This document shows, piece after piece, positions 8,193-24,597 of a stretch of 64,000 nt of DNA (the first letter of the stretch is position 1; each line of letters starts with the position of its first letter). The DNA is from Trichlorobacter thiogenes (GTDB taxonomy: Bacteria > Desulfobacterota > Desulfuromonadia > Geobacterales > Pseudopelobacteraceae). Under the pieces are notes generated by a model, which was not told the origin of the DNA, did not search any database, and saw nothing but the letters and a program-made list of their open reading frames with translations. The stretch is taken from positions 62,001-126,000 of the forward strand of contig NZ_FUWR01000005.1 in the NCBI RefSeq assembly GCF_900167465.1, read 5' to 3'. The position numbers and the translations under genes are program-made.

Positions 8193-8271
8193 CTTCACGG
8201 GGGGCACCCTTTCCCCGGCTGACCGGGACGGCGGTGGTAACTGCCAAGAAATACTTGGGTAAAATGGGTAT

Positions 8272-8300
8272 TCCTTAGCATCTTCACCGTCCCTTGTCAA
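8272..8300 (-). promoter_or_regulatory. Candidate sigma-70 promoter for the coiled-coil/LysM operon
   Basis: On the minus strand a perfect TTGACA -35 (8300-8295) is followed after 17 bp by TAAGGA (8277-8272), a weak -10. It lies 80 bp upstream of the start at 8192. Confidence 0.45.
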
Positions 8301-8321
8301 CCGCGGAAAGCGAGCAGCAGA

Positions 8322-8475
8322 GGGTTTTAAACAATCACCAGCATTGACGAAACGAGGATTTTTCGTTTCAGGGCTTGGCAGACAAAGAAGGGCGCGGAGA
8401 CGTACGGTACAGTACGTCGCACAAGCCCTTCTGCTGTATGACGAGGTCTGAAGCGAAAAAGACCGTTTAACAGGT
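8322..8475. repeat. Long imperfect hairpin element F
   Basis: Nested inverted repeats fill the gap between the coiled-coil gene and amtB. TTTTTCGTTTCAG (near 8369-8381) pairs with CTGAAGCGAAAAA (near 8448-8460). AGAAGGGC (8386-8393) pairs with GCCCTTCT (8425-8432). ACGTAC pairs with GTACGT at the tip. TTAAAC appears near both ends. It abuts the amtB stop codon and could also end amtB transcription. Confidence 0.6.
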
Positions 8476-9693
8476 TTAGCGTATATGGTCTTCTGGGTAG
8501 GCCCCAATCTTATGGATTGCCAGGTCAGGCCCGTTGTACTCATCCTCTTCATGCATCCTGATACCGACTGTTTTTGACAGGGCGCCATAGACAATGAAGC
8601 CGCTGGCAACCGCAAACAGTACCGCGGTCAGAGAACCGGCCAGCTGGGAAATAAAACTGATGTTGCCCATCCCGCCAAAAAATTTCTGGCCAAAGATACC
8701 GGCGGCAATACCACCCCAGGTACCGATCACCCCATGCAGCGGCCAGACACCCAGCACGTCGTCAATCTTCAGCTTTTCCTGTTCAAAGGTAAACCCATAG
8801 ACAAAGATCACTGCTGCAATGGCACCGGTTGCCAGCGCCCCCAGGGGATGCATCAGGTCACTGCCGGCACAGACCGCAATCAGGCCTGCCAGGGCACCGT
8901 TATGCACAAAGCCGGGGTCATTTTTGCCTGCAATCAGTGCTGCCAGCACACCACCCACCATGGCCATCAAGGAGTTGACCGCCACCAGACCGGAGATCTT
9001 CTCCAGATTACCGGCGCTCATCACGTTAAAACCAAACCAGCCCACCGCCAGAATCCAGGAGCCAAGCGCCAGAAACGGGATATTGCTGATCGGCAGGGGG
9101 TGGGACTTGCCATGCTGATAGCGCCCCTTACGTGCCCCCAGCAGAATCACCGCAGGCAGGGCGATCCAGCCACCAATGGAGTGTACCACCACCGATCCGG
9201 CATAATCATGGAACTCAAGCCCGCCGATTGACTTAAAGATCCCTTGTAGCAGCGAGGCGTTCTTACCCCAGATCAGGGACTCAAACAGGGGATAGCAGAG
9301 ACCGGCAAAGATCGCCCCGGCGATCACCTGGGGCCAGAACTTGGCCCGTTCCGCAATACCGCCGGAGATAATGGCCGGGATACAGGCGGCAAAACAGAGC
9401 AGAAAGAAGTAGTGGACCAGGTCATAGCCCATGGCGCCCTGCATCAGCTGATCAGCCGGTTTCAAAAACGAGATGCCATAGGCCAGCGGAAAGCCGATCA
9501 AAAAATAGACAATGGTTGAAACAGACCAGTCGGTCAGGATCTTTACAAAGGCATTCACCTGACTCTTCTTGCGGACCGAGCCCACTTCAAGAAAGGCAAA
9601 TCCGGCGTGCATGGCAAAGACCATCACCGCACCAAGCATCAAGAACAGGACATCTCCACTTTGTTTCAGGGGGGTAAGGGGTGACAACTCCAT
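8476..9693 (-). CDS. amtB: Ammonium transporter
   Basis: This inner-membrane Amt/MEP/Rh channel of 405 residues takes up ammonium. The frame shows about eleven hydrophobic helices and family motifs: GFAFLEVGSVRKKSQVNAFVKI near the N terminus, HSIGGWIALPAVILLGARKGR in the middle and DDVLGVWPLHGVIGTWGGIAAGIF later. The C-terminal tail GPDLAIHKIGAYPEDHIR is the GlnK-interacting tail type. I chose the ATG at 9693 because GGAGG lies 8 nt upstream (9706-9702). Unusually, no glnB/glnK gene is next to it. Upstream lies a sigma-54 promoter, which implies nitrogen control. Confidence 0.95.
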   Translation of the reverse strand: MELSPLTPLKQSGDVLFLMLGAVMVFAMHAGFAFLEVGSVRKKSQVNAFVKILTDWSVSTIVYFLIGFPLAYGISFLKPADQLMQGAMGYDLVHYFFLLCFAACIPAIISGGIAERAKFWPQVIAGAIFAGLCYPLFESLIWGKNASLLQGIFKSIGGLEFHDYAGSVVVHSIGGWIALPAVILLGARKGRYQHGKSHPLPISNIPFLALGSWILAVGWFGFNVMSAGNLEKISGLVAVNSLMAMVGGVLAALIAGKNDPGFVHNGALAGLIAVCAGSDLMHPLGALATGAIAAVIFVYGFTFEQEKLKIDDVLGVWPLHGVIGTWGGIAAGIFGQKFFGGMGNISFISQLAGSLTAVLFAVASGFIVYGALSKTVGIRMHEEDEYNGPDLAIHKIGAYPEDHIR

Positions 9694-9755
9694 TGTTGCT
9701 GCCTCCTGGGCATAATTTAAACTGCACTGCATCAATAGATGGCAGCAACCAGACA

Positions 9756-9771
9756 AGCAAAAATGTGGCCA
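9756..9771 (-). promoter_or_regulatory. Sigma-54 promoter of amtB
   Basis: The minus strand reads TGGCCACATTTTTGCT, against the consensus TGGCAC-N5-TTGCA. GG (9770-9769) and GC (9758-9757) have the required 10-nt gap. The expected start near 9745 leaves a leader of about 50 nt before the amtB ATG. Confidence 0.7.
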
Positions 9772-9816
9772 ATCAGCAACTTACGCTGCAACTGCCTGAA
9801 AAATGGAGCCTTAGTA

Positions 9817-9871
9817 CAAAATAAAGGCAGTCATGTCTGCATAAAATATATGCATATATGCCTTTATTTTG
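9817..9871. promoter_or_regulatory. Nested palindromes upstream of the amtB sigma-54 promoter (candidate NtrC-type enhancer)
   Basis: Perfect 13-bp arms CAAAATAAAGGCA (9817-9829) and TGCCTTTATTTTG (9859-9871) enclose a 17-bp palindrome TGCATA-N5-TATGCA (9838-9854). Its TGCA-ended 6-5-6 geometry matches NtrC sites (TGCACC-N5-GGTGCA), though the inner bases are AT-rich. The centre lies ~100 bp upstream of the expected amtB start, a usual enhancer distance. The rest of 9694-10011 holds no gene. Confidence 0.45.
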
Positions 9872-10011
9872 ATCACCATCTACAGTTTTCCCATCACACC
9901 AAACCGCTTCGTTTTCTGATCGAAGCAGCCTCCTGCCAACAATGTAACAACAGAGATCGTTGACAACGCCCGCGTCCTTACCATATATTAAAAAGTAAGG
10001 AGGGATGAGCC

Positions 10012-10230
10012 ATGTCACTTGCAACGATCACCTCAAAAGGACAGACAACCATTCCCAAAGAGATCAGAGACTGTCTTGGCCTACAGCCCAAAGACCAGGT
10101 TCAGTTTACCCTGATTGCCGATGAAACCGTCATCATGAGGGTAAAAAAGCGGGCTATCCGGGAGCTGTTTGGTGCGCTGCATGACCCGAAAAGATCAACC
10201 ATTCCGCTTGAAGATATGCGGTGCCGTTGA
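10012..10230 (+). CDS. AbrB/MazE-fold antitoxin (VapB-type)
   Basis: This 72-residue protein has the SpoVT/AbrB swapped-hairpin signature TITSKGQTTIPKEIRDCLGLQPKDQVQF at its N terminus, the DNA-binding part. The C-terminal half (RAIRELFGALHDPKRSTIPLEDM) is the usual toxin-wrapping tail. It should neutralise the PIN toxin encoded next and repress its own promoter. The AAGGAGGG sequence just upstream (9998-10005) is a strong ribosome-binding site. The stop shares one base with the toxin start. Confidence 0.9.
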   Translation: MSLATITSKGQTTIPKEIRDCLGLQPKDQVQFTLIADETVIMRVKKRAIRELFGALHDPKRSTIPLEDMRCR

Positions 10231-10646
10231 TGAGCATATTTGGACTTGATACCAATGTACTGGTCCGTTTTCTGCTTAAAGACGATCCGGTACAGGCAGA
10301 ACAGGCAAGGCGAGTGATTGAAGAGACTCTGGCTTCTGGTGATCAGGTGGCAGTCGGATTGCCGGTTGTGCTGGAGACAGAATGGGTTCTGCGTTCATGC
10401 GCAAAACTTGATAAAAAGACCATCATAACCACCTTCAGAATGCTGCTCGAATCCCGTGATCTGCTGATTGAACATGAGGACTACCTTGAACATGCCCTGT
10501 ACCTGTACGAAAACAACAACGCCGATTTTGCCGATTGCCTGATCGCCACCGGCTACAAGCGTTCCGGCTGCTCTGCAATGCTTACTTTTGACCGCAAGGC
10601 CGCCTCTATTCCAGGCGTCATCCTGCTGAACAGCACCAGATCATAA
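10230..10646 (+). CDS. PIN-domain RNase toxin (VapC-type)
   Basis: This 138-residue PIN protein starts MSIFGLDTNVLVRFLLKDDP and shows the acidic metal-binding residues of the family: D in GLDTNVL, E in LETEWVLR, and D residues in NADFADCLIA and TFDRKA. VapC toxins cut tRNA or rRNA. The ATG at 10230 overlaps the antitoxin stop as TGATG, so I prefer it to the GTG at 10221, which would add MPL. The gene ends 10 bp before uvrC. Confidence 0.88.
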   Translation: MSIFGLDTNVLVRFLLKDDPVQAEQARRVIEETLASGDQVAVGLPVVLETEWVLRSCAKLDKKTIITTFRMLLESRDLLIEHEDYLEHALYLYENNNADFADCLIATGYKRSGCSAMLTFDRKAASIPGVILLNSTRS

Positions 10647-10656
10647 CCCCGCCCCC

Positions 10657-12522
10657 ATGGAACTTCGTGACACCATCCGCAGCTTTCCCACCAGCCCCGG
10701 CGTCTACCTGATGCGGGATACCGCCGGTACGATCCTGTATGTCGGCAAGGCCCGTAACCTACGCCAGCGGGTCAGTAACTACTTCGGCAACACCGATGGG
10801 CGGCCCCAGGTCCGCTTTCTAATGGCCCGTGTGGCCACCATTGAATTCACCATCACCGATACTGAAAAAGAGGCGTTGCTGCTTGAAAACACCCTGATCA
10901 AACAGCATCAGCCCCGCTACAACCTCAACCTGAAGGATGACAAGACCTTCTTCTCTCTGCAGATTGACCTGCACAAGCCGTTTCCCCGCTTTCAGGTGGT
11001 ACGCAAGGTCAGCCGGGACGGTGCGCGCTACTTTGGCCCCTACGCCTCTGCCAGTGCTGCCCGTGAAGTGCTGCGCCAGCTGCAGCGGATGTTTCCGCTG
11101 CGTCACTACCCGCTCAAAAGCTGCATGAACCGTCCCCGCCCCTGCCTGTACCACCAGATCGGCCAGTGCAGCGCCCCCTGCCACAAGCTGATTTCAGCCG
11201 AGGAGTACGGCTTGCTGGTGGAAGGTGCGGTGCTGTTTCTGGAAGGCAAAAGCAAGGATCTGGTGGCTGGATTTAAAACCCGGATGAAGGATGCTGCCGA
11301 AGGGATGCGCTATGAAGAGGCTGCCCGCTGGCGTGATCTGCTGAGGGCGATTGACACCACCCTGGAGCACCAGAAGATGGTCAGCCAGGGGGGCGACAGC
11401 GATATCCTGGGGCTGGCCAGCAATGGCGACAGCCTGACTGTTGCGGTACTGTTTGTGCGGGGCGGCAACCTGTCCGGCAGCACGGCCCTGCATGGCTCCG
11501 GCGGGTTGGATACCGCGGATGCCCTGACCGCCTTTATCCAGCGCTATTACCATGAGGAGCGGTTTATCCCTGATGAACTGCTGCTGCCGCTGCCTGTTGA
11601 AGCCAGCCAGGCGCTGGAAGAATGGCTCAGTGAACTGAAGGGCAGAAAGGTCCGCCTGCATCAGCCCCGGCGCGGCGACAAACTGGATCTGGTCAACCTG
11701 GCTGGCCGTAACGCCCAGGCTGCACTGCTTGAAAAAACAGCAACCAGTCGCTCACAGGACCGGACGCTGGAAGAGCTGCAGCAAAAACTGTCCCTGCCAA
11801 GCCTGCCCCGCCGGATTGAATGCTACGACATCTCTACCCTGCAGGGACGGCACTCCGTCGGCAGCGGCATTGCCTTTCTGGATGGGCTGCCGGACAAGGC
11901 CCGCTACCGGCGTTACCGGATCAGAAACAGCCAGGGGCAGGATGATTTCGGGATGCTACAGGAGGTCTTTGCCCGGCGTTTCAGCCCGGAGCGGATCCAG
12001 CAATGGGGCCTGCCGGATCTGGTGGTGGTGGATGGCGGCATCGGGCAGCTGAACAGCACCCTGGCGGTGGTGACAGAACTGGGACTTTCAGAACAGCTGG
12101 CGGTTGTGTCGCTGGCAAAAAGCAGGGTTAAAGGGGATGGAAAAGATATCCACGTAGAGCGGACTGAAGAACGGGTCTTTCTGCCGGGCCGCCGTAACCC
12201 GCTCAGACTGCGGCAGGATTCAGCCCCGCTAAAACTACTGGCAGCTATCCGTGATGAGGCCCACCGCTTTGCCATCACGTACCACCGCAGCCTGCGGGAT
12301 AGAGCAACGCTCCGTTCCGCCCTGCGGGATATTCCCGGCATCGGGCCGAAACTGGAGCGGCTGCTGTTGACGCAGTTTGGTTCTTTGGAAGGGATTAAAA
12401 ATGCCACGGTTGAGGAACTTGCCACCGTGGCAGGGGTCAGTCAGGAACTGGCGCAGCAAATTAACCAACAACAAACACAGCAGCTCATATCCACGAAGGA
12501 CACGAAGTTTCACGAAGATTAA
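10657..12522 (+). CDS. uvrC: UvrABC system protein C
   Basis: UvrC makes both incisions in nucleotide excision repair after UvrAB finds the lesion. The 621-residue protein has an N-terminal GIY-YIG nuclease domain (GVYLMRDTAGTILYVGKARNL, ~14-34), a four-Cys segment typical of the UvrC Fe-S region (CMNRPRPC ... GQCSAPC, ~155-174), and a UVR segment (~208-230, AAEGMRYEEAARWRDLLRAI). The RNase H-like endonuclease region (ECYDISTLQG, VDGGIGQL) and C-terminal helix-hairpin-helix pair (DIPGIGPKLERLLL, ATVAGVSQELAQQI) follow. The last ~10 residues (STKDTKFHED) are encoded by an intergenic repeat element and are probably not ancestral. Confidence 0.96.
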   Translation: MELRDTIRSFPTSPGVYLMRDTAGTILYVGKARNLRQRVSNYFGNTDGRPQVRFLMARVATIEFTITDTEKEALLLENTLIKQHQPRYNLNLKDDKTFFSLQIDLHKPFPRFQVVRKVSRDGARYFGPYASASAAREVLRQLQRMFPLRHYPLKSCMNRPRPCLYHQIGQCSAPCHKLISAEEYGLLVEGAVLFLEGKSKDLVAGFKTRMKDAAEGMRYEEAARWRDLLRAIDTTLEHQKMVSQGGDSDILGLASNGDSLTVAVLFVRGGNLSGSTALHGSGGLDTADALTAFIQRYYHEERFIPDELLLPLPVEASQALEEWLSELKGRKVRLHQPRRGDKLDLVNLAGRNAQAALLEKTATSRSQDRTLEELQQKLSLPSLPRRIECYDISTLQGRHSVGSGIAFLDGLPDKARYRRYRIRNSQGQDDFGMLQEVFARRFSPERIQQWGLPDLVVVDGGIGQLNSTLAVVTELGLSEQLAVVSLAKSRVKGDGKDIHVERTEERVFLPGRRNPLRLRQDSAPLKLLAAIRDEAHRFAITYHRSLRDRATLRSALRDIPGIGPKLERLLLTQFGSLEGIKNATVEELATVAGVSQELAQQINQQQTQQLISTKDTKFHED

Positions 12523-12625
12523 GCAGTTACAGCAAACAAACGATTCACCCAAAAGGTGTTTGCTCTTTTTTAAACAATACGTTTTTCTTCGTGTTTCTTC
12601 GTGAACTTCGTGGACAACTGCTTTT
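12491..12625. repeat. Inverted-repeat element B (CACGAAG type) overlapping the uvrC 3' end
   Basis: The left arm CCACGAAGGACACGAAG... (12491-12517) includes the uvrC stop at 12520-12522. The right arm (12583-12615) is its imperfect reverse complement, ending ACTTCGTGG, and is followed by ACAACTGCTTTT, the core shared with elements A, C and D. The centre holds a bulged hairpin plus a T run (12565-12571) that may end uvrC transcription. Confidence 0.7.
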
Positions 12626-12632
12626 CTCAGGA

Positions 12633-14570
12633 CTATTCTTTCGACGCCTGCCCCCCACCCTGCGCAATCACCAGCTTCATCTCCTCATGCAGCAGCTTCA
12701 GATCAACCGGTTTTGCAACATAGCCGTCAAAGCCGGAACTTAACATATGTTCCCGGGTCTCTTTCAGCGCATGGGCGGTCAGGGCGACAATCGGCAGATG
12801 CGCGCCGCTCTTTTTCTCATGCTCACGGATAACCCGTGTGGTCTCCATACCATCCATAACCGGCATCTGAATATCCATCAGGGCCACATCAAACTCACCC
12901 TTTTGCCAGTGGTGCAGCAGCTCACCGCCATCATTCGCCTGGGTAACGGTATGGCCGTAGCGTGAAAGCAGCAGACTCAGCATCATGCAGTTGGTTTCAC
13001 TGTCGTCCGCCAGCAGAATTCGCAGCGGCGGCCCATCCCATAGTGACTTACTCCGGTCAGGCGTAAGGGTTTCCTGCTGGGGTGCCGGTTGAGAGTTGAT
13101 CAGGAACGGCAGGGTAACCGAGAAGGTACTGCCCTTGCCTTCCTGACTTTCAACCGTTATCTCCCCACCCATCTGATGGACCAGCCGGCTGCAGATGGAC
13201 AGCCCCAGTCCGGTGCCGCCAAAGCGGCGGCTTACTGATGTATCGGCCTGGGCAAAGGGGGCAAATATCTTCTCAAGCGCCTCCTGCTTGACACCAATCC
13301 CGGTATCACTGACGCTGAAACAGAGTTGCGCCTTGTCATCACGGCGATCCAGCAACTGGACCTTGACCCGAATCTCACCCTTACTGGTAAACTTGATGGC
13401 GTTGCCCACCAGATTGTACAGGATCTGCTTCAGGCGCAACTGATCACCAAACAAACTGTCAGGGGCACCATCAGCTATCTCATGCACAACGGCAACAGAC
13501 TTTGCCTGAGCCCGCGCTTCCTGGGATCTGATCAGTTGCGTGATGCAGCTGCGCAGACTAAACGGCGCGCTCTCAAGCTCCAGCTTGCCTGCCTCAATCT
13601 TTGAGATATCAAGCACATCATTGATCATCGACAGCAGGTTTTTTGCATCAGCCTCAATATTGGCAAGATACTTGGACTGCTCTTCAGAAAGAACCGTAAA
13701 GCGGAGCAGCTGGGCATTACCGATCACCCCGCTCATGGGGGTGCGGATCTCATGGCTCATGTTGGCCAGAAACTCGGTCTTGGCATTGTTGGCCGCTTCT
13801 GCCTCAGCCTTGGCCTTAAGCAACTCTTCCCTGGCCAGCCGTTTTTCCTCAAAGCGTTGTTCCAGTGAATCTGCCAGCTCATTAACCGCAAGCGCCGCCT
13901 GGCCCGGTTCGTCATCGGATTCCACAGCAATCCGGGAACTGAAATTACCCTTCTGCAAGGTATCAATGCCACGCATAAGTGCGTTAAAAGAACGGGTCAA
14001 CCGGAGCAGCACCAGATGGCTCAGGAAAGAGACAGCCACCCAGAAGAGAATAGCGATACTGACCGACCAGCCCACCAGCATCCGCACTGAACGGGACAGA
14101 TCAGTCGTGCTGCGCTCGATCCGCAGGCTACCCAGCACAGACTGCACATCCCCCCCGGCCCCCAGCGATGAACTGATAGAGGAGAGCTGCGGATTGCTAC
14201 GCACCTCCACGGTCTGGCTGATGATTTCTGAAGTGGGCACCGTGGGTTTGGCATGCAGATCAACCAGCACCCTGCCATCTGCAGCAGCGATCACCACCCG
14301 GTAGATTTCAGGTGACTCTGCCACCTGCTCTGCCATCTGGCGCAGCAGAAAGGTATTTTCAGCAAACAGCGGCAACCGGATCGATTGGGCCAGGGACTGG
14401 GCCTGCAGCTGAAGATGCTTAACCGCCTCATTTTTTGTTTTTGAAATTTCCCGGGTAATAAACAGGGTGCTTAACAGCAGGACAATCAGAAAGGTAAACA
14501 GGGTAAAAATCGTAAGCAGTTTGCGCTGAAAGCTGGTACGGATATCTAACTGTTTCAGGCGGGTAATCAT
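12633..14570 (-). CDS. Membrane hybrid sensor histidine kinase (HAMP-HisKA-HATPase-REC)
   Basis: This 645-residue kinase has two transmembrane helices (~16-38 and ~160-185) around a periplasmic sensor domain, then HAMP and a short coiled coil. HisKA follows with phospho-acceptor H273 in [12 protein letters not shown], then HATPase_c (N box [10 protein letters not shown] boxes DTGIGVK and GGTGLGLSI). A C-terminal receiver has LADDSE, D in [11 protein letters not shown] and the lysine in GYVAKPVD. I chose the ATG at 14570 because AAGGA lies 7 nt upstream; an upstream TTG would overlap the preceding stop. It closes a three-gene operon with a binding protein and a TonB-dependent receptor, which suggests it senses the ligand these handle. 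Confidence 0.92.
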
Positions 14571-14583
14571 GGAGGATTCCTTA

Positions 14584-15459
14584 CTACTCAACCAACTGTT
14601 TAACCAGAGTATCGTTGATTTTCAGACGTTTCAACAGACCGGCATTGGTTTTAAGGGTCACGCCCTTAGGGAAGCGCAGTGACATGCTGTCACCAGAGCC
14701 ACCTTCAAGCAGCTGATCAACCATATCCCTTGCCTGACGCCCCAGGGCAGCACGATCAATATCCAGCACCGCCGCAGCCCCCAGCCCCAGATAACTGGCG
14801 GTAAAGGAGACCACCGGCACCCCGTGCTGCTGGCTGAAGTAGAAATAGGCCTCGGTTGTCTCTCTGGTTACTGCGGTCAGATCCGGCAGCATCCAGAGCG
14901 CATCCACCTTGCCGGCCAGCGAGGCCAGCTGGGGCAGGGTATCGCGGGCTGTGGTCACTTCCCGCAGCACCAGACTGATACCGGCCTGTTCCGCTGCCTG
15001 CTGTGCCTGCCGCAGGTACCAGCCGCTTCTGGCAGGATTATAGACCACCCCCACCCGGCGCACCTTCATCTGCCGCAGCAGATTACAATACTGTTCAGGC
15101 GGGGCAACCATACCGATACCGGTCAGGTTGGCCTGAACAGACTTCAGGCGATGGATATCAAGGGACATCAGGGCGATCACCGGAATCGTCCGTATCTTGC
15201 GGGCCAGGGCCAGGGCAGCATCCCCCACCGCCAGGATCATACGGGGCCGGTCTTCACGCACAAGACGCACAACATCCACCTCAGCATAGTCAGACAGCAG
15301 CACCAACCGCCGGGTAATCCCCTGATCACGGTAAAAACCTTTCAACACCTCATCATAGGCCGGGTTACGCTGACTCTGCAGCACCAGCACGTCATAGGCC
15401 TGGGCCAATGAGGGGAGCAGCAACGCCAGGGCGAGTATGCACAGGACCAGGCGCCGCAT
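14584..15459 (-). CDS. Orphan periplasmic substrate-binding protein (ABC_sub_bind family)
   Basis: The 291-residue protein has a signal peptide (cleavage near AQA|Y, ~21) and the two-lobe pattern of the ABC_sub_bind/TrpX-like family ([58 protein letters not shown]). Such proteins normally deliver ligands to ABC importers, but no permease or ATPase gene is nearby. Its ATG overlaps the stop of the TonB receptor gene (TGATG), and the kinase starts 14 bp downstream. I infer a sensory role as ligand receptor for that kinase; the ligand is unknown. Confidence 0.88.
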
Positions 15460-17333
15460 CAGAACTTCACCCGCATGCCGCCTTCAAACCAGCGGCCAGC
15501 GTTACGATACAGTTCGGTGTCTGTAGTCTGTACGCCATTGAACAGGTTATGGGCAGAGAAGAACAGTTCAGGTGTCAGGCCATACCATGACTTTATCCGC
15601 CAGTTCAGGTGCAGGTCCCAGATCATGCCGGTGTCACGGGCAAGAGTGCTTTCATCCCGGTTCCACCAGACATAGTTGCCGGTCACCGTTCCACGCAACC
15701 CCAACTCACGGTTATCGTAGTTCAAGGCCAGCTTGACAGTATGGGGGGGAACCGCCTGATTGCTGTTGGTATGCAGCCGCTGGCCAGTATCACTATCCCA
15801 GGCATCCAGATAGGTATAGCCGCCGGCCAGAGAAAGGCCGAACAGCGGCGTGGTGCGGGCCTCCAGCTCAACCCCCTGACGCTGCTGGTTGCTGGTGGTG
15901 GTTACGGTACCGATAGATTGGCTGTCACGCAGGGCATTAAAAAAGTAGGTCCCCTTCAGCCAGACAAAAGGCAGTGCCTCGCTCTCTACCCCTACTTGAA
16001 CGGTCTTGATCTTCTGCAGCCTGTTGTCGGCCTTTGGCGTTGGCAGGGTATAGCCCTGGGCAGCATAGGCCCGCAGCAGCGTATGTTCAGCCAGTTGATA
16101 GGTGGCCCCCAGGGTCAGACTGGTAACATCGCCGGATGTACCGGTAATGTCATAACGGGCACCGGGCAGAATAGTCAGCTGCCCCAGGGTATAGGCGCCA
16201 TTGGCATAGATGCCCCAACGGTCCCAGCTTCGTTCGTAGAGCGGAGGACTACCGCTCAAGACGTCTTTGTTAATGGCCCAGGCATGGCTATAATCAAGCC
16301 CCAGCAGCAGGCTTTTCTGGTAGTCACCCCAGCGCAGACGGGCATTGATCCCCTGGCTGGTGTCCCTCACCACACCATCACTATAAAAAGCAAAACCACC
16401 CAGACCATCAGGAGCACCAAATTTGGTATGGTCATCACGGTTGGTCAGGTAGCTGTCCAGCTCCAGGGTCAAGCGATCAGTCAGAGGCTGGTTAAGTTTC
16501 AGGTAGGCATTGGTGCGGCGGTACTGGTTATTGTCATGGACAAAGCCCCAACTAACTGTTTCCCCTTCATCCAGACCCGGCTTGGCGGTCAGATAGGACA
16601 GCCCAAAGGTAAGGCTGCCATTGTGCGGTAACTGGTAGGCAAGCTTGGTAAACAGGTTATTCTGGTTAGTACCTGCATTGGGGGTCAGACCATCAGAACG
16701 CAGGTTAGCGACGGTCATGTAATAGCCAAAACGGTCCAGAGTACCGCTTACCTCTGCGCGGGAATCTGCGGTAAACTGAGAGCCGGTAGAGCCGGACACC
16801 ATGCCGCTGAATTTGCGCTCAGCATCAGGGGATTTGGTGATGATATTGATCACCCCGCCCAGGGCCGGCCCCCAGGCAGCCGAGGCAGCCCCCTTGATGA
16901 TCTCAACCCGCTCAATCTGTTGCACCGGAATCAAGCCGGGAATGGCCATGTTCTGATCAAAATCATTCTGGCGGATACCGTCCACCAGCACTAGAATTGT
17001 GGTGTTATATGCCCCCTGGATATTGAAAAAACTAAAGGTGCCAGGGGTACGCAGGTAGTCAAGTTGGATGCCCGGCACGGTCTGCAACACCTCAGCCAGG
17101 GTGTGGGCATTCAGTCGTTCAATATCATCAGCAGTAATAACAGTGATGTTTTCAGCAACGCGGGAGGTAGGACGGGGACTGCGAGAGGCAGCAACAACCG
17201 ATTCAGCCTGGGCCTCAATAATACCAAGATCCTCCAGGCCGTCATCGGCAGCACACAGCGTAGCGGCTGTTGTGTGCCACAACAGCATCAGCAGAAGCAA
17301 CCATGATGTTTTGCAGTTGATACGGATCAACAT
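15459..17333 (-). CDS. TonB-dependent outer-membrane receptor
   Basis: This 624-residue protein has a signal peptide (~1-28), then a plug domain (~45-160: ENITVITADDIERLNAHTLAEVLQTVPGI ... ILVLVDGIRQN ... IERVEIIKGAASAAWGPALGGVINIITKSP). A beta-barrel follows, ending in the aromatic RWFEGGMRVKF typical of outer-membrane proteins. It resembles vitamin B12/siderophore-type receptors, but the ligand cannot be told. The ATG at 17333 has AGGAG 5 nt upstream; a GTG two codons earlier is less likely. No cobalamin riboswitch is visible upstream. It is transcribed divergently from the geopeptide cassette. Confidence 0.93.
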   Translation of the reverse strand: MLIRINCKTSWLLLLMLLWHTTAATLCAADDGLEDLGIIEAQAESVVAASRSPRPTSRVAENITVITADDIERLNAHTLAEVLQTVPGIQLDYLRTPGTFSFFNIQGAYNTTILVLVDGIRQNDFDQNMAIPGLIPVQQIERVEIIKGAASAAWGPALGGVINIITKSPDAERKFSGMVSGSTGSQFTADSRAEVSGTLDRFGYYMTVANLRSDGLTPNAGTNQNNLFTKLAYQLPHNGSLTFGLSYLTAKPGLDEGETVSWGFVHDNNQYRRTNAYLKLNQPLTDRLTLELDSYLTNRDDHTKFGAPDGLGGFAFYSDGVVRDTSQGINARLRWGDYQKSLLLGLDYSHAWAINKDVLSGSPPLYERSWDRWGIYANGAYTLGQLTILPGARYDITGTSGDVTSLTLGATYQLAEHTLLRAYAAQGYTLPTPKADNRLQKIKTVQVGVESEALPFVWLKGTYFFNALRDSQSIGTVTTTSNQQRQGVELEARTTPLFGLSLAGGYTYLDAWDSDTGQRLHTNSNQAVPPHTVKLALNYDNRELGLRGTVTGNYVWWNRDESTLARDTGMIWDLHLNWRIKSWYGLTPELFFSAHNLFNGVQTTDTELYRNAGRWFEGGMRVKF

Positions 17334-17396
17334 GACCACTCCTGGTAAACCTGCCTGCAGTGCAAATTCTTACTAGCAAATTTATAGGCATTCGTC

Positions 17397-17412
17397 TAGG
17401 GTAAACACCCTA
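17397..17412. promoter_or_regulatory. Palindrome TAGGGT-N4-ACCCTA in the receptor/geopeptide divergent promoter region
   Basis: A perfect 6-4-6 palindrome lies between the divergent TonB receptor and peptide precursor genes. On the plus strand a TATTAC -10-like box (17433-17438) would put its centre near -40, while no good -35 is seen, so activator dependence is possible. It could equally be an operator for the receptor operon. Confidence 0.35.
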
Positions 17413-17457
17413 CATTCCATCTATTTGGATGGTATTACACTCAAAAGGAGGTGCGTC

Positions 17458-17547
17458 ATGGAAATTGAAGTGCTGAATCAGGGAGTGGAAGAGTGTCAGA
17501 TAGTGGCAGGCTGTTGCACCGGCGGTGCCAACAGCGCCCGCAAGTAA
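17458..17547 (+). CDS. Geopeptide-type RiPP precursor, 29 residues
   Basis: The frame starts ATG at 17458 with a near-perfect AAGGAGGTG ribosome-binding site ending 4 nt upstream, and ends TAA at 17545-17547. The first 12 residues (MEIEVLNQGVEE) are acidic and leader-like. The C-terminal half is small and Cys/Gly-rich, with Cys at 13, 19 and 20 (CQIVAGCCTGG) and an NSARK end. A radical SAM/SPASM enzyme lies 68 bp downstream, the layout of ribosomally made, modified peptides. I recall a family annotated 'putative geopeptide' with a matching maturase in Geobacter genomes, but no product structure that I know of. The gene is too short for routine callers. Confidence 0.8.
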   Translation: MEIEVLNQGVEECQIVAGCCTGGANSARK

Positions 17548-17568
17548 CAAAAAACAAAAAGCTGTATT

Positions 17569-17602
17569 TGAATGGGGGGCGCTTGCTCCCCATTCATTTT
17601 TT
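17569..17602 (+). terminator. Terminator/attenuator between peptide precursor and maturase
   Basis: A perfect 9-bp stem (TGAATGGGG 17569-17577 with CCCCATTCA 17588-17596) has a 10-nt loop and is followed by six T (17597-17602). It should cut most transcripts after the precursor, giving excess peptide over maturase mRNA, as is usual in RiPP clusters. The T run is 14 nt before the maturase start. Confidence 0.8.
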
Positions 17603-17615
17603 CAGGAGCCTGACC

Positions 17616-18920
17616 ATGCCGCTTTCCCGTTACGCCATCTCATTTCCCGACCCGCAGCGTCCTGGCTTTACAATTCTGTACTCCACCCGCAAGGGGTCTC
17701 TGGTCAGGGTTTCTGAGCAGTTGTTAACCGCTATTACAAACAACACCCTTACAGATGAAGAACGCGCCACCTTGCAGCAGCTCCAGCTCTGGACCAATGA
17801 TCTGGATGCCGAGCGTAGCGAGATGGCAGCCATTGTTGATCATACCAATAGCCATGCCCCGCTCTTTTCCGCCACAGTGGTGCTGACCCTGGCCTGTAAT
17901 CTGGCCTGTCCCTACTGTTTTGAAGAACCGTTCCGGGACGGCCAGGAGATGACTGAAGAAACCGGCAGGGTGCTGGTTGATTATCTTATCAGGAATCATC
18001 TTGATCAGGGCCGCAATGTGGAACTGCGCTTTTATGGCGGCGAACCATTAATGGCTACCACGCGACTAAAGGAGATTGCCACCCCGCTGCTGGCAGCGGC
18101 TGCAAACGCAGGCAAAACCTTTTCATTCAGCCTGGTGACCAATGCCACCCTGTTAACGCGGGCAATGGTGGAAGAGTTGCTCCCCCTTGGCCTGAAAAGC
18201 GCCATCATTACTCTGGACGGACCGCCGGAGATCCACGACCAGCAGCGTCCGTTTGTATCAGGCAAAGGAAGTTTCAAGACCATCATCGACAATCTTGCAG
18301 CGGTGTACGATCTGGTCACCATCAAGCCCGGTGGCAATTTCACCCGCGACAATTACCGTTGTTTTCCGGAAATGCTGGACCTGCTGTTGGAGGCTGGTAT
18401 TGATCCGTCTCGGTTGGGACCGGTGCAGTTTTCACCAATCCACCCCAAGTCCGGCCTGTTTGATCCCCACGCCGCAGCCTGTGTCCTTCCTAACGAACCG
18501 TGGCTGATTGAGGCGAACCTGTTTCTGCGGGAAGAAATACTGCGGCGCGGCTTTGCGATGGACAAACTGCAGATGGGCATCTGCATGATTGATTTGGAAC
18601 AGACTCTGGTGGTTAACTACGATGGCAGCCTGTACAAATGCCCCAGCCTGATGGGCTGGCCGGAGTTCTGTGTCGGCACCCTGGCCGAGGGGGTGAGTGA
18701 CTACCAAGAATCTCACCGGCTGGATATCTGGAAGAATGACGAATGCCTGGACTGCGCCTACCTGCCGATCTGCTTTGGTGGCTGCCGGCTGCTGACGCTA
18801 CAGAAAAATGGAGCAATCGACACCGTGGAATGCCATCGCCCGATGCTGGATGCCTCGCTGGAGCGGCTGGTACTGCAGGATCTGGGGACACGGAAGCCTG
18901 ACTTGCGGCCAGCCTGCTGA
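17616..18920 (+). CDS. Radical SAM/SPASM peptide maturase (geopeptide type)
   Basis: I start this 434-residue enzyme at ATG 17616, with AGGAG at 17603-17607; the frame is open upstream but that part overlaps the precursor. The radical SAM motif C94-x3-C98-x2-C101 (LACNLACPYCFEE) binds the SAM-cleaving [4Fe-4S] cluster. GGEP (FYGGEPL) and a TIM-barrel pattern follow. The C-terminal SPASM region has many cysteines (GICMID, YKCPS, EFCVG, ECLDCAYLPICFGGCR, ECHRP), fitting two auxiliary Fe-S clusters. The first ~85 residues may hold the peptide-recognition part. It should modify the 29-residue peptide encoded just upstream, perhaps with thioether or C-C links at its cysteines. Confidence 0.9.
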   Translation: MPLSRYAISFPDPQRPGFTILYSTRKGSLVRVSEQLLTAITNNTLTDEERATLQQLQLWTNDLDAERSEMAAIVDHTNSHAPLFSATVVLTLACNLACPYCFEEPFRDGQEMTEETGRVLVDYLIRNHLDQGRNVELRFYGGEPLMATTRLKEIATPLLAAAANAGKTFSFSLVTNATLLTRAMVEELLPLGLKSAIITLDGPPEIHDQQRPFVSGKGSFKTIIDNLAAVYDLVTIKPGGNFTRDNYRCFPEMLDLLLEAGIDPSRLGPVQFSPIHPKSGLFDPHAAACVLPNEPWLIEANLFLREEILRRGFAMDKLQMGICMIDLEQTLVVNYDGSLYKCPSLMGWPEFCVGTLAEGVSDYQESHRLDIWKNDECLDCAYLPICFGGCRLLTLQKNGAIDTVECHRPMLDASLERLVLQDLGTRKPDLRPAC

Positions 18921-18950
18921 CAGAACAAAACAATACCCCCAGAAAAACCA

Positions 18951-19230
18951 TTTCACGCGGAGACGCAGAGACGCGAAGAAAAAATCAAGCTATTATCTAT
19001 AAAACGGCAGTTAACCACAGATACATAGGATGAACACGGATAAAACCTGACTGTCTTTTGCCTTTAACTCTTTGATGTATCTGTGTTTATCCTATTCATC
19101 CCAGTTTCAAATGCTTTTTATAGGATTATTCACGTATGTTTCCGTTTCTCCAACAGGGTTATCGTTTGCAAGCTCCTAACCATCAGATTTTCTCCGCGGC
19201 CCCGCGGCTCCGCGTGAGTAACTGCCGTTT
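18951..19230. repeat. Nested inverted-repeat element C (two repeat families, one inside the other)
   Basis: The outer arms are CACGCGGAGACGCAGAGACG (from 18954, 8-nt period) and a GATTTTCTCCGCGG... GCTCCGCGTGAGTAACTGCC arm (19186-19226). Inside, at 19001-19109, a second element begins AACGGCAGTTAACCACAGAT and has its own opposing arm ending ATCCTATTCATCCCAGTTT. Thus a CACAGATxxA-type element lies within a CGCAGAGA-type one. The 326 bp between the maturase gene and lysC hold nothing else that I can see. Confidence 0.65.
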
Positions 19231-19246
19231 CAAGCATCAGCCCCCA

Positions 19247-20470
19247 TCACTCGCTGCACTGATCCACCTTAAACGCCTCATGCAGGACCCGCACGGCAAG
19301 TTCAGTGTACTTTTCTTCAATGGCCACCGAGACCTTGATTTCCGAGGTGGAGATCATCTGAATATTGATATTGTTGTAGGCCAGTGCGGTGAACATCCGG
19401 GCTGCCACACCGGCGTGGTTCTTCATCCCCAGGCCGACAATGGAGACCTTGCTGATGTTGCGGTCTGCAAGCAGTTCCCGCGCATTAACCTCTTTGGCGA
19501 TCTGGGCGGTAATCTGGTGGGCCTTGTCCAGATCGGTCTTTGAGACGGAAAAGGTGATATCCGCCAGACCATCCTGCCCCACGTTCTGGACAATCATATC
19601 AACGGAGATATCCTTGTCAGCCAGGCCGGTCAGGATCTTTGCGGCACTGCCCGGTTTATCAGGTACGCCCAGCACCGCAATCTTCGCCTCATTCTTGTCT
19701 GCCACAATCCCGGTAACAACCACACCTTCCATTGGCATATGCTCCTTTACGACCAGTGTGCCGCTTTCAGCAGTGAATGCCGAGCGGATATGCATAGTCA
19801 CGTTATGCTTCTTTGCGTATTCAATGGCACGGATCTGGACACCCCGCGCCCCCTGGCTGGCCAGCTCCAGCATCTCATCATAGGAGATCTCTTTAATCTT
19901 GCGGGCATTTTCGCAGATGGCCGGATCAGCGGTAAAGATGCCATCAACATCGGAGTACAGTTCACAGACCTCTGCACCCAGAGCGTGGGCCAGGGCCACG
20001 GCAGAGGTATCACCGCCGCCCCGTCCCAGGGTGGTAATGGTGCCGCTGCGATCAATCCCCTGGAATCCGGCAACCAGCACAATGGCGCCATGGTTGAGGT
20101 CTGCCCTGATTTTTGTCGGGTCTATATATTCTATGGAGGCCCTGGTGTGCAGCGAGTCGGTGATAATCGGCACCTGCCAGCCCAGGTAGGTCTTGACCTT
20201 GTAGCCCAGCGAGCTGATGCTGAGCGCCAGCAGGCCGATGGAGACCTGTTCACCGGCAGAGATCAGCAGATCATACTGGCTGCCGGTCTGGGCCGGACTG
20301 ATCTCTTGCGCCATCTCAATCAGGCGGTTGGTTTCACCTGCCCGGGCCGAGATGACCACCACGACGTCGTTGCGGTCGTTGTACGACTGAATAATCCGCT
20401 GGGCGATCTTCCTGATCTGCTCCGGCGAGGTGACTGCAGAACCGCCATATTTTTGAACTACCGATGCCAT
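19247..20470 (-). CDS. lysC: Aspartate kinase
   Basis: This 407-residue kinase phosphorylates aspartate, the first step toward Lys, Met and Thr. The kinase domain (~1-240) shows [54 protein letters not shown] and [14 protein letters not shown]. Two ACT domains follow (~262-405: [25 protein letters not shown] and [37 protein letters not shown]), so feedback control by lysine or threonine is expected. The N-terminal motif is KYGGSAV where KFGGTSV is usual, a mild deviation at the nucleotide site. GAGG lies 7 nt before the ATG. Confidence 0.96.
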
Positions 20471-20512
20471 AGCAACCTCGTGATAACCGTGTTGTCATCT
20501 CTGCTGATACAG

Positions 20513-20541
20513 ATCTAGCCCAGCTGTGGGCTGGGCTAGAT
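20513..20541. promoter_or_regulatory. Perfect 12-bp hairpin in the lysC leader
   Basis: ATCTAGCCCAGC (20513-20524) and GCTGGGCTAGAT (20530-20541) form a 12-bp stem with a 5-nt loop, 43 bp before the lysC start codon. No T run follows on either strand. It may be an operator, an mRNA hairpin or the end of an old element. Confidence 0.5.
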
Positions 20542-20570
20542 ACCAAACAGAACGCAGGTACTACAAACAA

Positions 20571-20718
20571 AAACAGTTGCCACAGAGGTCACAGAGTTCT
20601 CAGAGAAAAAACAAAAAATACAACGCACTACCTGTTTGCTTTTGGATGAGGCACTACCATCCGATTTTTCTTGCAGTTCTCTGTGTTTCTCTGTGACCTC
20701 TGTGGCTGATTGCCGTTT
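20571..20718. repeat. Inverted-repeat element D (CACAGAG type)
   Basis: The left arm AAACAGTTGCCACAGAGGTC (20571-20590) continues with ACAGAGTTCTCAGAG, a 9-nt period. The right arm (20672-20718) is its imperfect reverse complement, reading CTCTGTGACCTCTGTGGC then TGATTGCCGTTT. It ends 4 nt from the gdhA stop codon and lies between gdhA and lysC. Confidence 0.7.
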
Positions 20719-20722
20719 CAGG

Positions 20723-22210
<1,488 letters not shown>

Positions 22211-22283
22211 TTATTTTACACTGACGACACCCGCGCAGCCATAGCAGCGTAACAGTTGAATTAGAGTTATTTATCAGCTCACT

Positions 22284-22313
22284 TTTGGCGCAGAATGTAA
22301 CTCATGCGCCAAA
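22284..22313. promoter_or_regulatory. 30-bp palindrome TTTGGCGCA-N12-TGCGCCAAA between gdhA and etfB
   Basis: Two perfect 9-bp arms (22284-22292 and 22305-22313) with a 12-bp spacer lie in the 384-bp divergent intergenic region. The centre is 155 bp upstream of etfB. It looks like a dimeric regulator site or a cruciform. The remainder of 22070-22453 has no gene beyond the sigma-54 site. Confidence 0.5.
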
Positions 22314-22453
22314 TAACGAGCCGCACCACTAATAGCAAAATCAGCACTTTAGGTATTGCATGATTTATTTTGATGCAGTATTTACATCAGTCCAGCTGTA
22401 CGAGCAAACGCAACCCGGCATTTTGCACATTAAATAGTCATATCGAGGAAAAC

Positions 22454-23269
22454 ATGCTGATTGTCGCCTGTATCAAACAAGTCCCTGATACGACCCAGGT
22501 CAAGATTGACCCGGTCACCAACACCCTGGTGCGTGAAGGGATCCCCTTCATCATGAACCCCTATGACACCCATGCCATGGAGGCGGCGCTGCAACTGAAA
22601 GACCAGTTTGGTTGCCGGGTTGCGGTACTTTCCATGGGGCCGCCCAATGCCGAGGCCACCCTGCGCAAGGCGCTGTCTGCCGGTGTTGATCGTGCCATTC
22701 TGCTGTCTGACCGGGTCTTTGGCGGTGCCGATACTCTGGCAACCAGCAAGGTGCTGGCCGCTGCCATTGCCAAGCTGAATGCCGAGGTGGAGCCGGTGGG
22801 ACTGGTGATCTGCGGCAAGCAGACCATTGATGGCGATACCGCCCAGGTGGGACCGGGCATAGCGGTTCGGCTGGGCTACCAGCAGTTGACCCTGGTGGAC
22901 AAGGTGGAAGAACTGGACCTGGTCAACAAAAAGCTGGTGGTCAGCCGTAAGCTGGAAGGCCGCCACGAACGGGTGCAGGCACCGCTACCGGCCATGCTGA
23001 CGGTGGTACGGGAGCTGAACCGCCCCCGCTACCCCACCGTGCCGATGCGGCTGGCTGCGGCCACTGCCGAGGTTGAGGTCTGGGATAACGGGGTGCTGCA
23101 ACTGGACCCGCAGACCATCGGCCTGAAAGGCTCACCCACCTGGGTATCCAAGATCTTCTCACCAGAACGTGACAAAGGCGAAATTGTGGGGGACGGCTAC
23201 GCTGACCCGGAGGGGACCGTTGACCTGCTGCTGGGCAAATTGATGGAAAAGGATCTGCTACCGCTATGA
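22454..23269 (+). CDS. etfB: Electron transfer flavoprotein beta subunit
   Basis: This 271-residue ETF beta subunit starts MLIVACIKQVPDTTQVKIDP at ATG 22454, with GAGGA 5 nt upstream. The family signature VxRxLE-type region (VVSRKLEGRHERVQAPLPAMLTVVRELNRPRYP) and the nucleotide-binding GPPNAEATLRKALSAGVDRAILL are present. With EtfA it takes electrons from acyl-CoA dehydrogenases in the cytoplasm. Its stop overlaps the etfA start by 4 nt. Confidence 0.95.
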   Translation: MLIVACIKQVPDTTQVKIDPVTNTLVREGIPFIMNPYDTHAMEAALQLKDQFGCRVAVLSMGPPNAEATLRKALSAGVDRAILLSDRVFGGADTLATSKVLAAAIAKLNAEVEPVGLVICGKQTIDGDTAQVGPGIAVRLGYQQLTLVDKVEELDLVNKKLVVSRKLEGRHERVQAPLPAMLTVVRELNRPRYPTVPMRLAAATAEVEVWDNGVLQLDPQTIGLKGSPTWVSKIFSPERDKGEIVGDGYADPEGTVDLLLGKLMEKDLLPL

Positions 23270-24597
23270 GTGAAACCACACCAAAGATCAAAAAACCCCG
23301 TGGACGCGCCCGCCTGCTGGACGGCAAGTGTATCGCCTGCGGTGCCCGCTGTGAAAGCTCCTGCCCAGTCAACTGCATCAGCATGAATGAGGCCGGCGAG
23401 CCGGTGGTGGATGCTGAAAAGTGTATCGGCTGCCTTAAGTGCGTCAAGGTCTGTCCGGCCCAGGCGATTGAGATGTTCTTCACCCCTGAAGAGCAGAAGA
23501 TTCTGGATCAGCTTGCCGCAGCAGGGGCAGCACCACAGGCTGAAGATGAGGATCCTGAAGCTGCTGCCATTGCCAAACTGCAGGCCCAGTATCGCGGGGT
23601 CTGGGTCTTTATTGAACAGGCTGATGGTGAGGCGGCCAAGGTCTCCTGGGAACTGCTGGGCAAGGGCAAGGAGCTGGCTGCCAAGCTGGGGGTCGGCCTG
23701 TCTGCCGTGGTGATCGGCCACAAGGTGGAACCACTCTGCCATGAGGCATTCAAGTACGGCGCAGAAAAGGCCTATCTGCTGGATGCACCGCTCTATGCCG
23801 ATTACCGCACCCAATCCTACCTTGAGGCGATGTGCCACCTGATCGGGCAGCACAAGCCGGAGGTGATCCTGATGGGGGCCACCGGTATGGGCCGTGACCT
23901 GGCCGGGGCCGTGGCCACCAGGGTCGGCACCGGCCTGACCGCTGACTGCACCGGCCTGGATATTGATGACAAACGCAACCTGATGCAGACCCGCCCGGCC
24001 TTTGGCGGCAACATCATGGCCACCATCATGTGTGACAAGTACCGGCCCCAGATGTCCACGGTCCGGCCCCATGTGATGCAGATGCCGGAACCGTTACCGG
24101 GGGCAACCGGCCAGATCATCAGAGACAGCTTTACCACCCCGGAAGATCAGGTACTGGCAAAGGTACTGGAGATCATCCGTGATGGGGACAGCAAGCACAA
24201 GGTGGATATCGGCGGCGCTGAATTTATTGTCTCTGGCGGCCGTGGCATGATGGGACCGGAAAACTTCGGCATGTTGGAAGAGCTGGCCAAAGAGCTGAAC
24301 GGCGTGGTGGGGGCCTCCCGCTCTGCAGTGGATGCAGGATGGCTTGGCCATGACCGGCAGGTGGGCCAGACCGGCAAGACCGTGCGGCCCAAGATCTACA
24401 TCGCCTGCGGCATCTCCGGCGCTATTCAGCATCTGGTGGGAATGCAGGATGCTGATCTGATTATCGCCATTAACCGGGACAAGGATGCACCGATCTTTGA
24501 AGTGGCCCATTACGGCATTGTGGGCGACCTGTTCCAGGTGGTACCTGTCCTGACGCGAAAAATTCGTGAGCTGAAAGCACGAGGCAAAAAACAATGA
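23266..24597 (+). CDS. etfA: Electron transfer flavoprotein alpha subunit with N-terminal ferredoxin domain
   Basis: The 443-residue protein carries an N-terminal ferredoxin-like domain with cysteines at 22, 25, 29, 33, 37 and at 53, 56, 59, 63 (CIGCLKCVKVCP), likely two [4Fe-4S] clusters. The ETF alpha domains follow, ending in the FAD-binding signature PKIYIACGISGAIQHLVGMQDADLIIAINRDKDAPIFEVAHYGIVGD. The ferredoxin extension is known from ETFs of anaerobes and should link FAD to another Fe-S partner. The stop overlaps the start of the membrane oxidoreductase by 4 nt, so the three genes form one operon. Confidence 0.95.
   Translation: MSETTPKIKKPRGRARLLDGKCIACGARCESSCPVNCISMNEAGEPVVDAEKCIGCLKCVKVCPAQAIEMFFTPEEQKILDQLAAAGAAPQAEDEDPEAAAIAKLQAQYRGVWVFIEQADGEAAKVSWELLGKGKELAAKLGVGLSAVVIGHKVEPLCHEAFKYGAEKAYLLDAPLYADYRTQSYLEAMCHLIGQHKPEVILMGATGMGRDLAGAVATRVGTGLTADCTGLDIDDKRNLMQTRPAFGGNIMATIMCDKYRPQMSTVRPHVMQMPEPLPGATGQIIRDSFTTPEDQVLAKVLEIIRDGDSKHKVDIGGAEFIVSGGRGMMGPENFGMLEELAKELNGVVGASRSAVDAGWLGHDRQVGQTGKTVRPKIYIACGISGAIQHLVGMQDADLIIAINRDKDAPIFEVAHYGIVGDLFQVVPVLTRKIRELKARGKKQ

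Follow-up and report, generated by a model that had tools for sequence, protein, structure and literature searches.

Analysis of a 64,000-nucleotide stretch of Trichlorobacter thiogenes DNA (NCBI RefSeq assembly GCF_900167465.1, contig NZ_FUWR01000005.1, positions 62,001 to 126,000 of the forward strand; hereafter the window, with positions counted from its first letter) identified a predicted geopeptide-type cassette for a ribosomally synthesized and post-translationally modified peptide (RiPP), in which the gene of a 29-residue precursor (17458-17547, + strand) is followed by that of a 434-residue radical S-adenosylmethionine (SAM)/SPASM geopeptide maturase (17616-18920, + strand). In the relatives examined, such cassettes are linked to a TonB-dependent receptor, a periplasmic binding protein and, at most loci, a histidine kinase. 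Because the receptor and the binding protein adjoin nearly every maturase examined, the peptide probably belongs to a system for sensing or uptake instead of being a stand-alone product. Our best reading, to which we assign a probability of about 0.42, is that the product would be a thioether-type RiPP, active outside the cell, which its own receptor imports and which is read via the binding protein and the kinase.

In the window, the three linked genes lie on the reverse strand. The receptor gene (15459-17339), encoding 626 residues with the domains PF07715 and PF00593, is divergent from the peptide gene; its end is overlapped by the gene of a predicted 291-residue periplasmic solute-binding protein of the ABC_sub_bind family (14584-15459; PF04392, 62.7 bits), which is overlapped in turn by the gene of a 652-residue hybrid histidine kinase with HAMP, HisKA, HATPase and receiver domains recognized by Pfam (12633-14591). 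For comparison, 100 stretches around maturases, chosen from order and phylum lists, were joined to the window, giving 105 maturase hits in 101 loci (L numbers below; G numbers denote genomes). Linkage was counted for the 94 hits with at least 3.2 kb of upstream DNA, the 11 with less flank being omitted; tandem cassettes share some of their neighbors. A receptor homologue was found within approximately 6 kb of 93 of the 94 maturases and a binding-protein homologue also of 93; a kinase accompanied 80 under a lenient limit of 35 bits, and all three were present together at 79. The sole miss for receptor and binding protein, L221, has a maturase of 307.4 bits, below the family cut-off.

The linkage control consisted of 80 named loci, 22 of geopeptide type and 58 of other SPASM maturases. 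Within 7 kb, the 58 yielded one receptor (a 44-bit match) and no binding protein, and, judged by record titles, about one-quarter of these 58 loci belong to groups that lack an outer membrane, so that the receptor control looks somewhat better than it is. Receptor and binding protein were each found at 18 of the 22 geopeptide-type loci, and the loci with misses (L066, L070, L074, L077 and L081) adjoin contig ends. The 3.57-Mb genome of the window holds 12 matched receptor stretches (approximately 8 genes), one of them close to the cassette, and 3 PF04392 proteins; by arithmetic, a random 12-kb stretch of this genome has a few per cent chance of holding either a receptor or a PF04392 protein. 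A second TonB receptor followed by a PF04392 gene occurs in the same genome at G000:C23:22331-25271, where no match to the geopeptide maturase and precursor models TIGR04280 and TIGR04229 is listed.

The linkage of peptide and maturase to the receptor set outlasts changes in gene order. A receptor frame ends less than 1 kb upstream of the maturase at 85 hits, 67 of them divergent and 18 co-directional. At most loci outside the order of the window, and at some inside it, the receptor shares the orientation of the peptide, and the genes of the binding protein and the kinase are for the most part oriented away. The receptor is downstream in L197, L201 and L236; the kinase stands beside the binding protein in many loci and directly after the maturase in L142, L149, L151, L157, L173, L184, L189 and L232; and in L186 and L187 the precursor remains beside the receptor, with the maturase several hundred bases further away. 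In L076, located in a Nitrospiraceae metagenome-assembled genome (MAG), the receptor (7184-9082), the peptide (ATG at 9171; MKKGIVVLKKGVAKKAVLATTCCRIGAANVKL), a hairpin with T run, the maturase (9349-10638), the binding protein, the kinase and an NtrC-type regulator (PF00158, PF00072) follow one another on one strand, with a two-base N gap in the contig ahead of the binding protein. That two functionally unrelated units merely lie side by side is scarcely credible: the receptor set does stand alone in places, but the linkage at 93 of 94 maturases against 1 and 0 of 58 in the control, the altered gene orders and the MAG with all genes in line argue against it.

Recurrent neighbors, defined as protein clusters found in at least 6 of the 101 loci, were those of the receptor, the maturase, the binding protein and the kinase, together with one of receiver-domain proteins and five more. 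When one member of each of these five was compared with Pfam, one was CheB and the other four had no match; three of these look like shadow frames. Because the receiver-domain cluster, present at 32 of 101 loci, mixes NtrC-type regulators with kinase pieces, it gives no count of regulators; Pfam confirmed an NtrC-type regulator in L076, L142 and L171, downstream in the latter two. In L171, L192, L194, L200, L226-L230, L240 and L241, the gene of a protein of approximately 475 residues lies downstream of the maturase and is convergent with it, and the protein of L171 is an NtrC-type regulator by Pfam. Among the recurrent neighbors there was no permease, ATPase or inner-membrane importer family, and the binding protein adjoins the kinase, its predicted partner, without such a transporter. 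The initial annotation had reported no export or protease gene beside the cassette, which agrees with these clusters, but it had overlooked the receptor, binding protein and kinase at 12633-17339.

The precursor frame runs from an ATG at 17458 to a TAA at 17545-17547 and is preceded by a Shine-Dalgarno sequence (AAAGGAGG; 17444-17451, + strand). Its 29 codons (MEIEVLNQGVEECQIVAGCCTGGANSARK), with Cys at positions 13, 19 and 20, and the ribosome-binding site are as initially described; the Gly-rich end described with them is weak, with 2 Gly among the nine residues following the Cys pair. The peptide consists of a leader containing the motif EVLNQG, the conserved Cys19-Cys20 and the nine-residue tail TGGANSARK. 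It scored 29.6 bits (28.0 in a six-frame search) against TIGR04229 ("geopeptide"), just under the cut-off of 30. Same-genus orthologues in G126 and G135 scored 37.6 and 33.6 bits, respectively, and the maturases beside them are 89 and 93% identical to that of the window. Given that these orthologues pass TIGR04229 although the window peptide falls 0.4 bits short, the latter is assigned to the geopeptide type by orthology.

TIGR04280 matched 103 of the 141 genomes of the window's order at 1e-60 or better (101 over cut-off), 39 of the 395 genomes in a phylum-wide draw (30 over cut-off) and none of 14 control genomes. TIGR04229, a weaker model than that of the maturase, has matches with an E of at most 0.1 in 59 of the 141; matches exceed the cut-off in 14 genomes, and a single control genome of the 14 has one that stays below it. 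By a strict pattern, a precursor was found upstream of 94 of the 105 maturase hits. The same search gave 2 on the reverse strand and 2 among the 58 other SPASM maturases, with 0.9 expected from dinucleotide shuffles, which rules out a chance reading frame. Five further precursors (L183, L208, L231, L186 and L187) were recognized by eye, raising the total to 99 of 105, and none was seen before the second L145 maturase or in L213, L214, L217 and L221; a candidate with Cys-Thr-Cys before a truncated maturase in L145 was left out of the count. The initial annotation had staked its proposal on conservation of the peptide frame upstream of orthologous maturases, and such conservation is what these counts reveal. 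L150 carries a tandem array of two maturases and three near-identical precursors.

Adjacent Cys residues occur in 91 of the 94 strict peptides, a figure biased upward, as the search score rewards them. A third Cys precedes the pair in 18 of these 91 and has the spacing of the window in 7, so that Cys13 can be ruled out as a core residue and its modification, also proposed initially, is unsupported; the conserved pair of the predicted precursor is Cys19-Cys20. The leader motif [VILFM][VILF]xxG stands mostly 8-12 residues ahead of the pair, as VLNQG in the window and VLDEG in many relatives. The tails of the strict peptides, 6-13 residues long, are either hydrophilic and ending in Arg or Lys, or aromatic or aliphatic; among 93 distinct peptides, the first tail Arg is at +8 after the pair in 34 and at +6 in 13, and the tails of 25 contain no Arg or Lys. 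Variable tails, together with unlike cassettes in close species, would suit an antimicrobial role, in which a sactipeptide-like bacteriocin, linked to a regulator, uses the receptor homologue of rivals to enter them. Such an antimicrobial is highly improbable in our judgment, as no immunity or export family was among the recurrent neighbors and a maturase family carried by 103 of the order's 141 genomes looks more like a standing function.

Between peptide and maturase lies an intrinsic-terminator-like hairpin with six T (17569-17602, + strand), a probable attenuator. The stem of 9 base pairs and six T first noted here is present, but its arms are longer, 12 bases each (17569-17580 and 17585-17596), 92% complementary and followed by TTTTTT. 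The stretch 17545-17620 has a folding z of -2.5 relative to shuffles, 6 of 200 of which fold equally well. In 91 homologous peptide-maturase spacers of 25-200 bases (5 of the 96 peptide rows lay outside that range and were omitted), stems of at least 6 pairs were found in 81 vs. 31.7 expected from dinucleotide shuffles, stems of at least 8 pairs in 68 vs. 8.4, and terminator-like structures in 49 vs. 1.5, the last of which supports the attenuator that had been proposed. The hairpin is a conserved part of the predicted cassette, and we infer that it determines how much precursor is made relative to enzyme, keeping the former above the latter.

Upstream of the peptide, two small inverted repeats lie at 17397-17412 and 17417-17432 (TAGGGTAAACACCCTA and CCATCTATTTGGATGG). 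The second could form a 5'-leader hairpin (CCATC-N6-GATGG, + strand) before the ribosome-binding site, and a subset of relatives has altered yet pairing counterparts (CATCC/GGATG, CACCC/GGGTG and CCATTC/GAATGG), similarly spaced from the start, which is suggestive only; a general scan gave a mild excess, with 68 of 95 exceeding their own shuffled mean. No Rfam element reached gathering score between receptor and peptide in a scan of 10000-24000. A sigma-54 site before the peptide was found at the limit in 16 of 96 vs. 3.2 in simple shuffles; the window is not among them, so this candidate was not used.

The window maturase scored 679.5 bits against TIGR04280 (cut-off 400), its residues 1-425 aligning with positions 1-427 of the 428-position model, and thus belongs to that family; it scored 54.3 bits against the general SPASM model TIGR04085 (cut-off 27). 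Among the matches listed (25 of 70 NCBIfam families), these two alone exceeded their own cut-offs, and the models of thioether enzymes stayed below theirs: PapB at 140 (cut-off 340), SCIFF (TIGR03974) at 111.8 (cut-off 425) and RumMC at 63.1 bits (cut-off 720). The radical SAM motif C94-x3-C98-x2-C101 is invariant across 22 aligned sequences, the window included. SPASM domains follow the cysteine order CX9-15GX4C ... CX2CX5CX3C ... C, to which C323, G337, C342, C377, C380, C386, C390 and C406, likewise invariant in the 22, conform. The SPASM-type radical SAM enzyme with C-x3-C-x2-C at 94-101 of the initial annotation is thereby confirmed, and its pairing of a geopeptide-type precursor with such a maturase is supported by TIGR04280 far above and TIGR04229 just below cut-off. 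The closest solved structure is a thioether enzyme (5why/5wgg), which we take to be CteB of Clostridium thermocellum, both by profile (6e-30) and by Foldseek (2.3e-22) on the AlphaFold model of the maturase (mean pLDDT, the predicted local distance difference test score, 84.6). By this analogy, the likeliest guess at the chemistry is a thioether formed at the Cys pair. A perfect inverted repeat of 8 base pairs inside the maturase gene (18568-18585) is probably due to chance.

For the structural model of the receptor (mean pLDDT 83.9), the best match was BtuB and the third best the structure of PqqU with pyrroloquinoline quinone (PQQ), closely followed by many siderophore receptors. Because BtuB, PqqU and siderophore receptors all resemble it, the ligand class is not fixed by the receptor fold; many receptor classes score alike, and the fold was unusable for naming the ligand. 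Its nearness to cobalamin and siderophore receptors, and the vicinal Cys pair of the peptides, would agree with a metallophore, that is, a secreted Cys-Cys peptide that binds metal and whose complex is imported by the receptor, the binding protein and kinase measuring uptake, so that the cargo and not the peptide would matter. We consider this rather unlikely, given that no inner-membrane importer is among the recurrent neighbors and no second ligand residue is conserved, the Arg at +8 being found in 34 of 93 peptides and any tail Arg or Lys being absent from 25.

Co-inheritance was examined for 51 cassettes in 47 genomes by Mantel tests with UvrC as species clock. With species removed, the partial correlation of receptor and maturase distances was 0.79 and that of tail and receptor 0.555, compared with 0.005 for tail and species with the receptor removed. 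With maturase and species both removed, tail and receptor still correlated at 0.216 (p 0.001, an optimistic value, as the sequences are related and Mantel tests then overstate significance), and removal of the leader as well left 0.212. Each of G125, G051 and G023 has two unlike cassettes, every one with its own tail and receptor type. A quick tree built from 112 receptors shows two changes of the orientation label, and the receptor sets that lack a nearby maturase are scattered over it (17 rows with 13 changes, 11 of them forced by well-supported branches; shuffled mean 16.2). These comparisons indicate that cassettes move between lineages as units and that tails follow the receptor, not the species; binding of the product by the receptor would be the simplest reason for the joint movement.

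Several observations weigh against import and sensing of an external geopeptide, in addition to the flattered receptor control, the optimistic p values and a receptor fold that is equally like BtuB, PqqU and siderophore receptors. Neither an exporter nor a peptidase family was among the clusters of at least 6 loci, below which lie a further 20 clusters of 3-5 loci. The tail also follows the maturase with receptor and species removed (0.244), and the leader, which follows the maturase more strongly (0.343), also follows the receptor (0.165 with maturase and species removed). In 76 cassettes with the maturase alone removed, the leader-receptor correlation (0.219) even exceeds that of tail and receptor (0.113). 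Since the leader also follows the receptor and the tail also follows the maturase, simple co-inheritance accounts for some of the tail-receptor signal. The correlation of tail and binding protein is weak (0.145, p 0.015; 51 cassettes) or absent (-0.01; 76 cassettes), and as reader of the tail the binding protein has weak support in the smaller set and none in the larger.

Receptor sets without a peptide of their own bear on the same question. The PF04392 family occurs in 117 of the 141 genomes of the order, and among the 150 binding-protein places listed, a maturase lies within 7 kb of 100 but not of the remaining 50, a result that likewise speaks against a dedicated geopeptide system. Of the 50, 20 were fetched, and 18 of these hold a receptor, near which the available DNA ends in 4; 12 of the 14 maturase-less receptor loci with enough DNA have no trace of peptide or maturase, another adverse point. 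Because these 12 loci contain neither, the receptor set can, as far as gene content tells, exist without its own geopeptide, and loss followed by eavesdropping or another ligand would both fit. In L243, one of the other two loci, a C-terminal remnant of the maturase frame alone remains opposite the receptor; in the second, L244, a precursor with Cys-Ile-Cys lies beside the receptor set with no adjacent maturase, and its genome, G071, has maturases elsewhere.

Such sets would also be expected if receptor and sensor detected an outside compound and the two-component output induced geopeptide and maturase, the product staying inside the cell. The lack of exporters and proteases among the recurrent neighbors fits an internal effector of this kind, as does a leader that follows the receptor just as the tail does, which plain co-inheritance would produce. 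This account fails, however, to predict the tail-receptor correlation of 0.212 that persists after removal of maturase, species and leader, or the precursors of L186 and L187 that stay by the receptor with the maturase several hundred bases off, and we regard it as somewhat unlikely.

Under the preferred reading of an external, re-imported product, the maturase would read the leader motif (VLNQG here) and join the Cys-Cys core with residues in the short tail; the cross-links would probably be thioethers, like those of the nearest enzyme of solved structure. The conserved terminator between the genes would hold the precursor in excess. The product would then exit the cell by a route encoded elsewhere. 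Outside, either free or with metal or other cargo, it may be carried into the periplasm by its own TonB-dependent receptor, as the co-inheritance suggests. Judging from domains and linkage, the ABC_sub_bind protein may bind the product and report to the histidine kinase, from which the signal may pass on to an NtrC-type regulator in some relatives. Overall, a self-made modified peptide would serve as signal or scout, with a dedicated apparatus for its import and sensing. A bolder and more doubtful extension is that geopeptides are pheromones or scouts of Gram-negative bacteria with a receptor, binding protein and kinase dedicated to their re-entry and reading, in which receptor types matched to peptide types would give related species separate channels and receptor-only genomes would eavesdrop.

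Geobacter relatives are known for metal and electron cycling. The linkage, at nearly every locus examined, to a single type each of receptor, binding protein and kinase turns the function of geopeptides into a directly testable question. If true, the proposed loop would be a modified-peptide signaling system that crosses the outer membrane. The literature searched, largely without subscription papers and bioRxiv preprints, yielded no mention of "geopeptide" or "TIGR04280", no geopeptide product or function and no report of a geopeptide-receptor-sensor module, and the available part of PMC4289311 contains nothing on geopeptides. The RiPP family itself already has NCBI names; the receptor/sensor module is apparently unreported in that literature.

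Among known systems, the closest is the geopeptide system as defined by TIGR04229 and TIGR04280, with which the window shares a maturase over cut-off and a precursor of the same place and pattern; the window peptide differs in its narrow shortfall from TIGR04229, and the linkage to receptor and sensor is absent from the family names. The SCIFF thioether enzyme of 5wgg/5why provides the nearest solved structure by profile and fold, whereas the window maturase is far below the SCIFF cut-off and its precursor contains a single Cys pair in place of the six spaced Cys of SCIFF. The PapB ranthipeptide and SkfB sactipeptide systems also combine a radical SAM/SPASM enzyme with a short Cys-containing precursor (SkfB structure 6efn, 4.8e-07), but the window enzyme falls under the PapB cut-off and no exporter or protease family is among its recurrent neighbors. 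PQQ is made from a peptide by a pathway with a SPASM enzyme. According to the available part of PMC12124388, PqqU is the TonB-dependent importer for PQQ and so offers a precedent for a TonB receptor of a peptide-derived product. The third rank of the PqqU-PQQ structure for the window receptor model agrees with this precedent, whereas PQQ is a cofactor, and fold rank cannot separate PqqU from BtuB or siderophore receptors. In systems of the LuxP-LuxQ type, a periplasmic binding protein without a transporter feeds a histidine kinase. Likened by arrangement alone, the geopeptide loci share with them the binding protein without a transporter and the kinase, and differ in having a TonB-dependent receptor and an encoded peptide.

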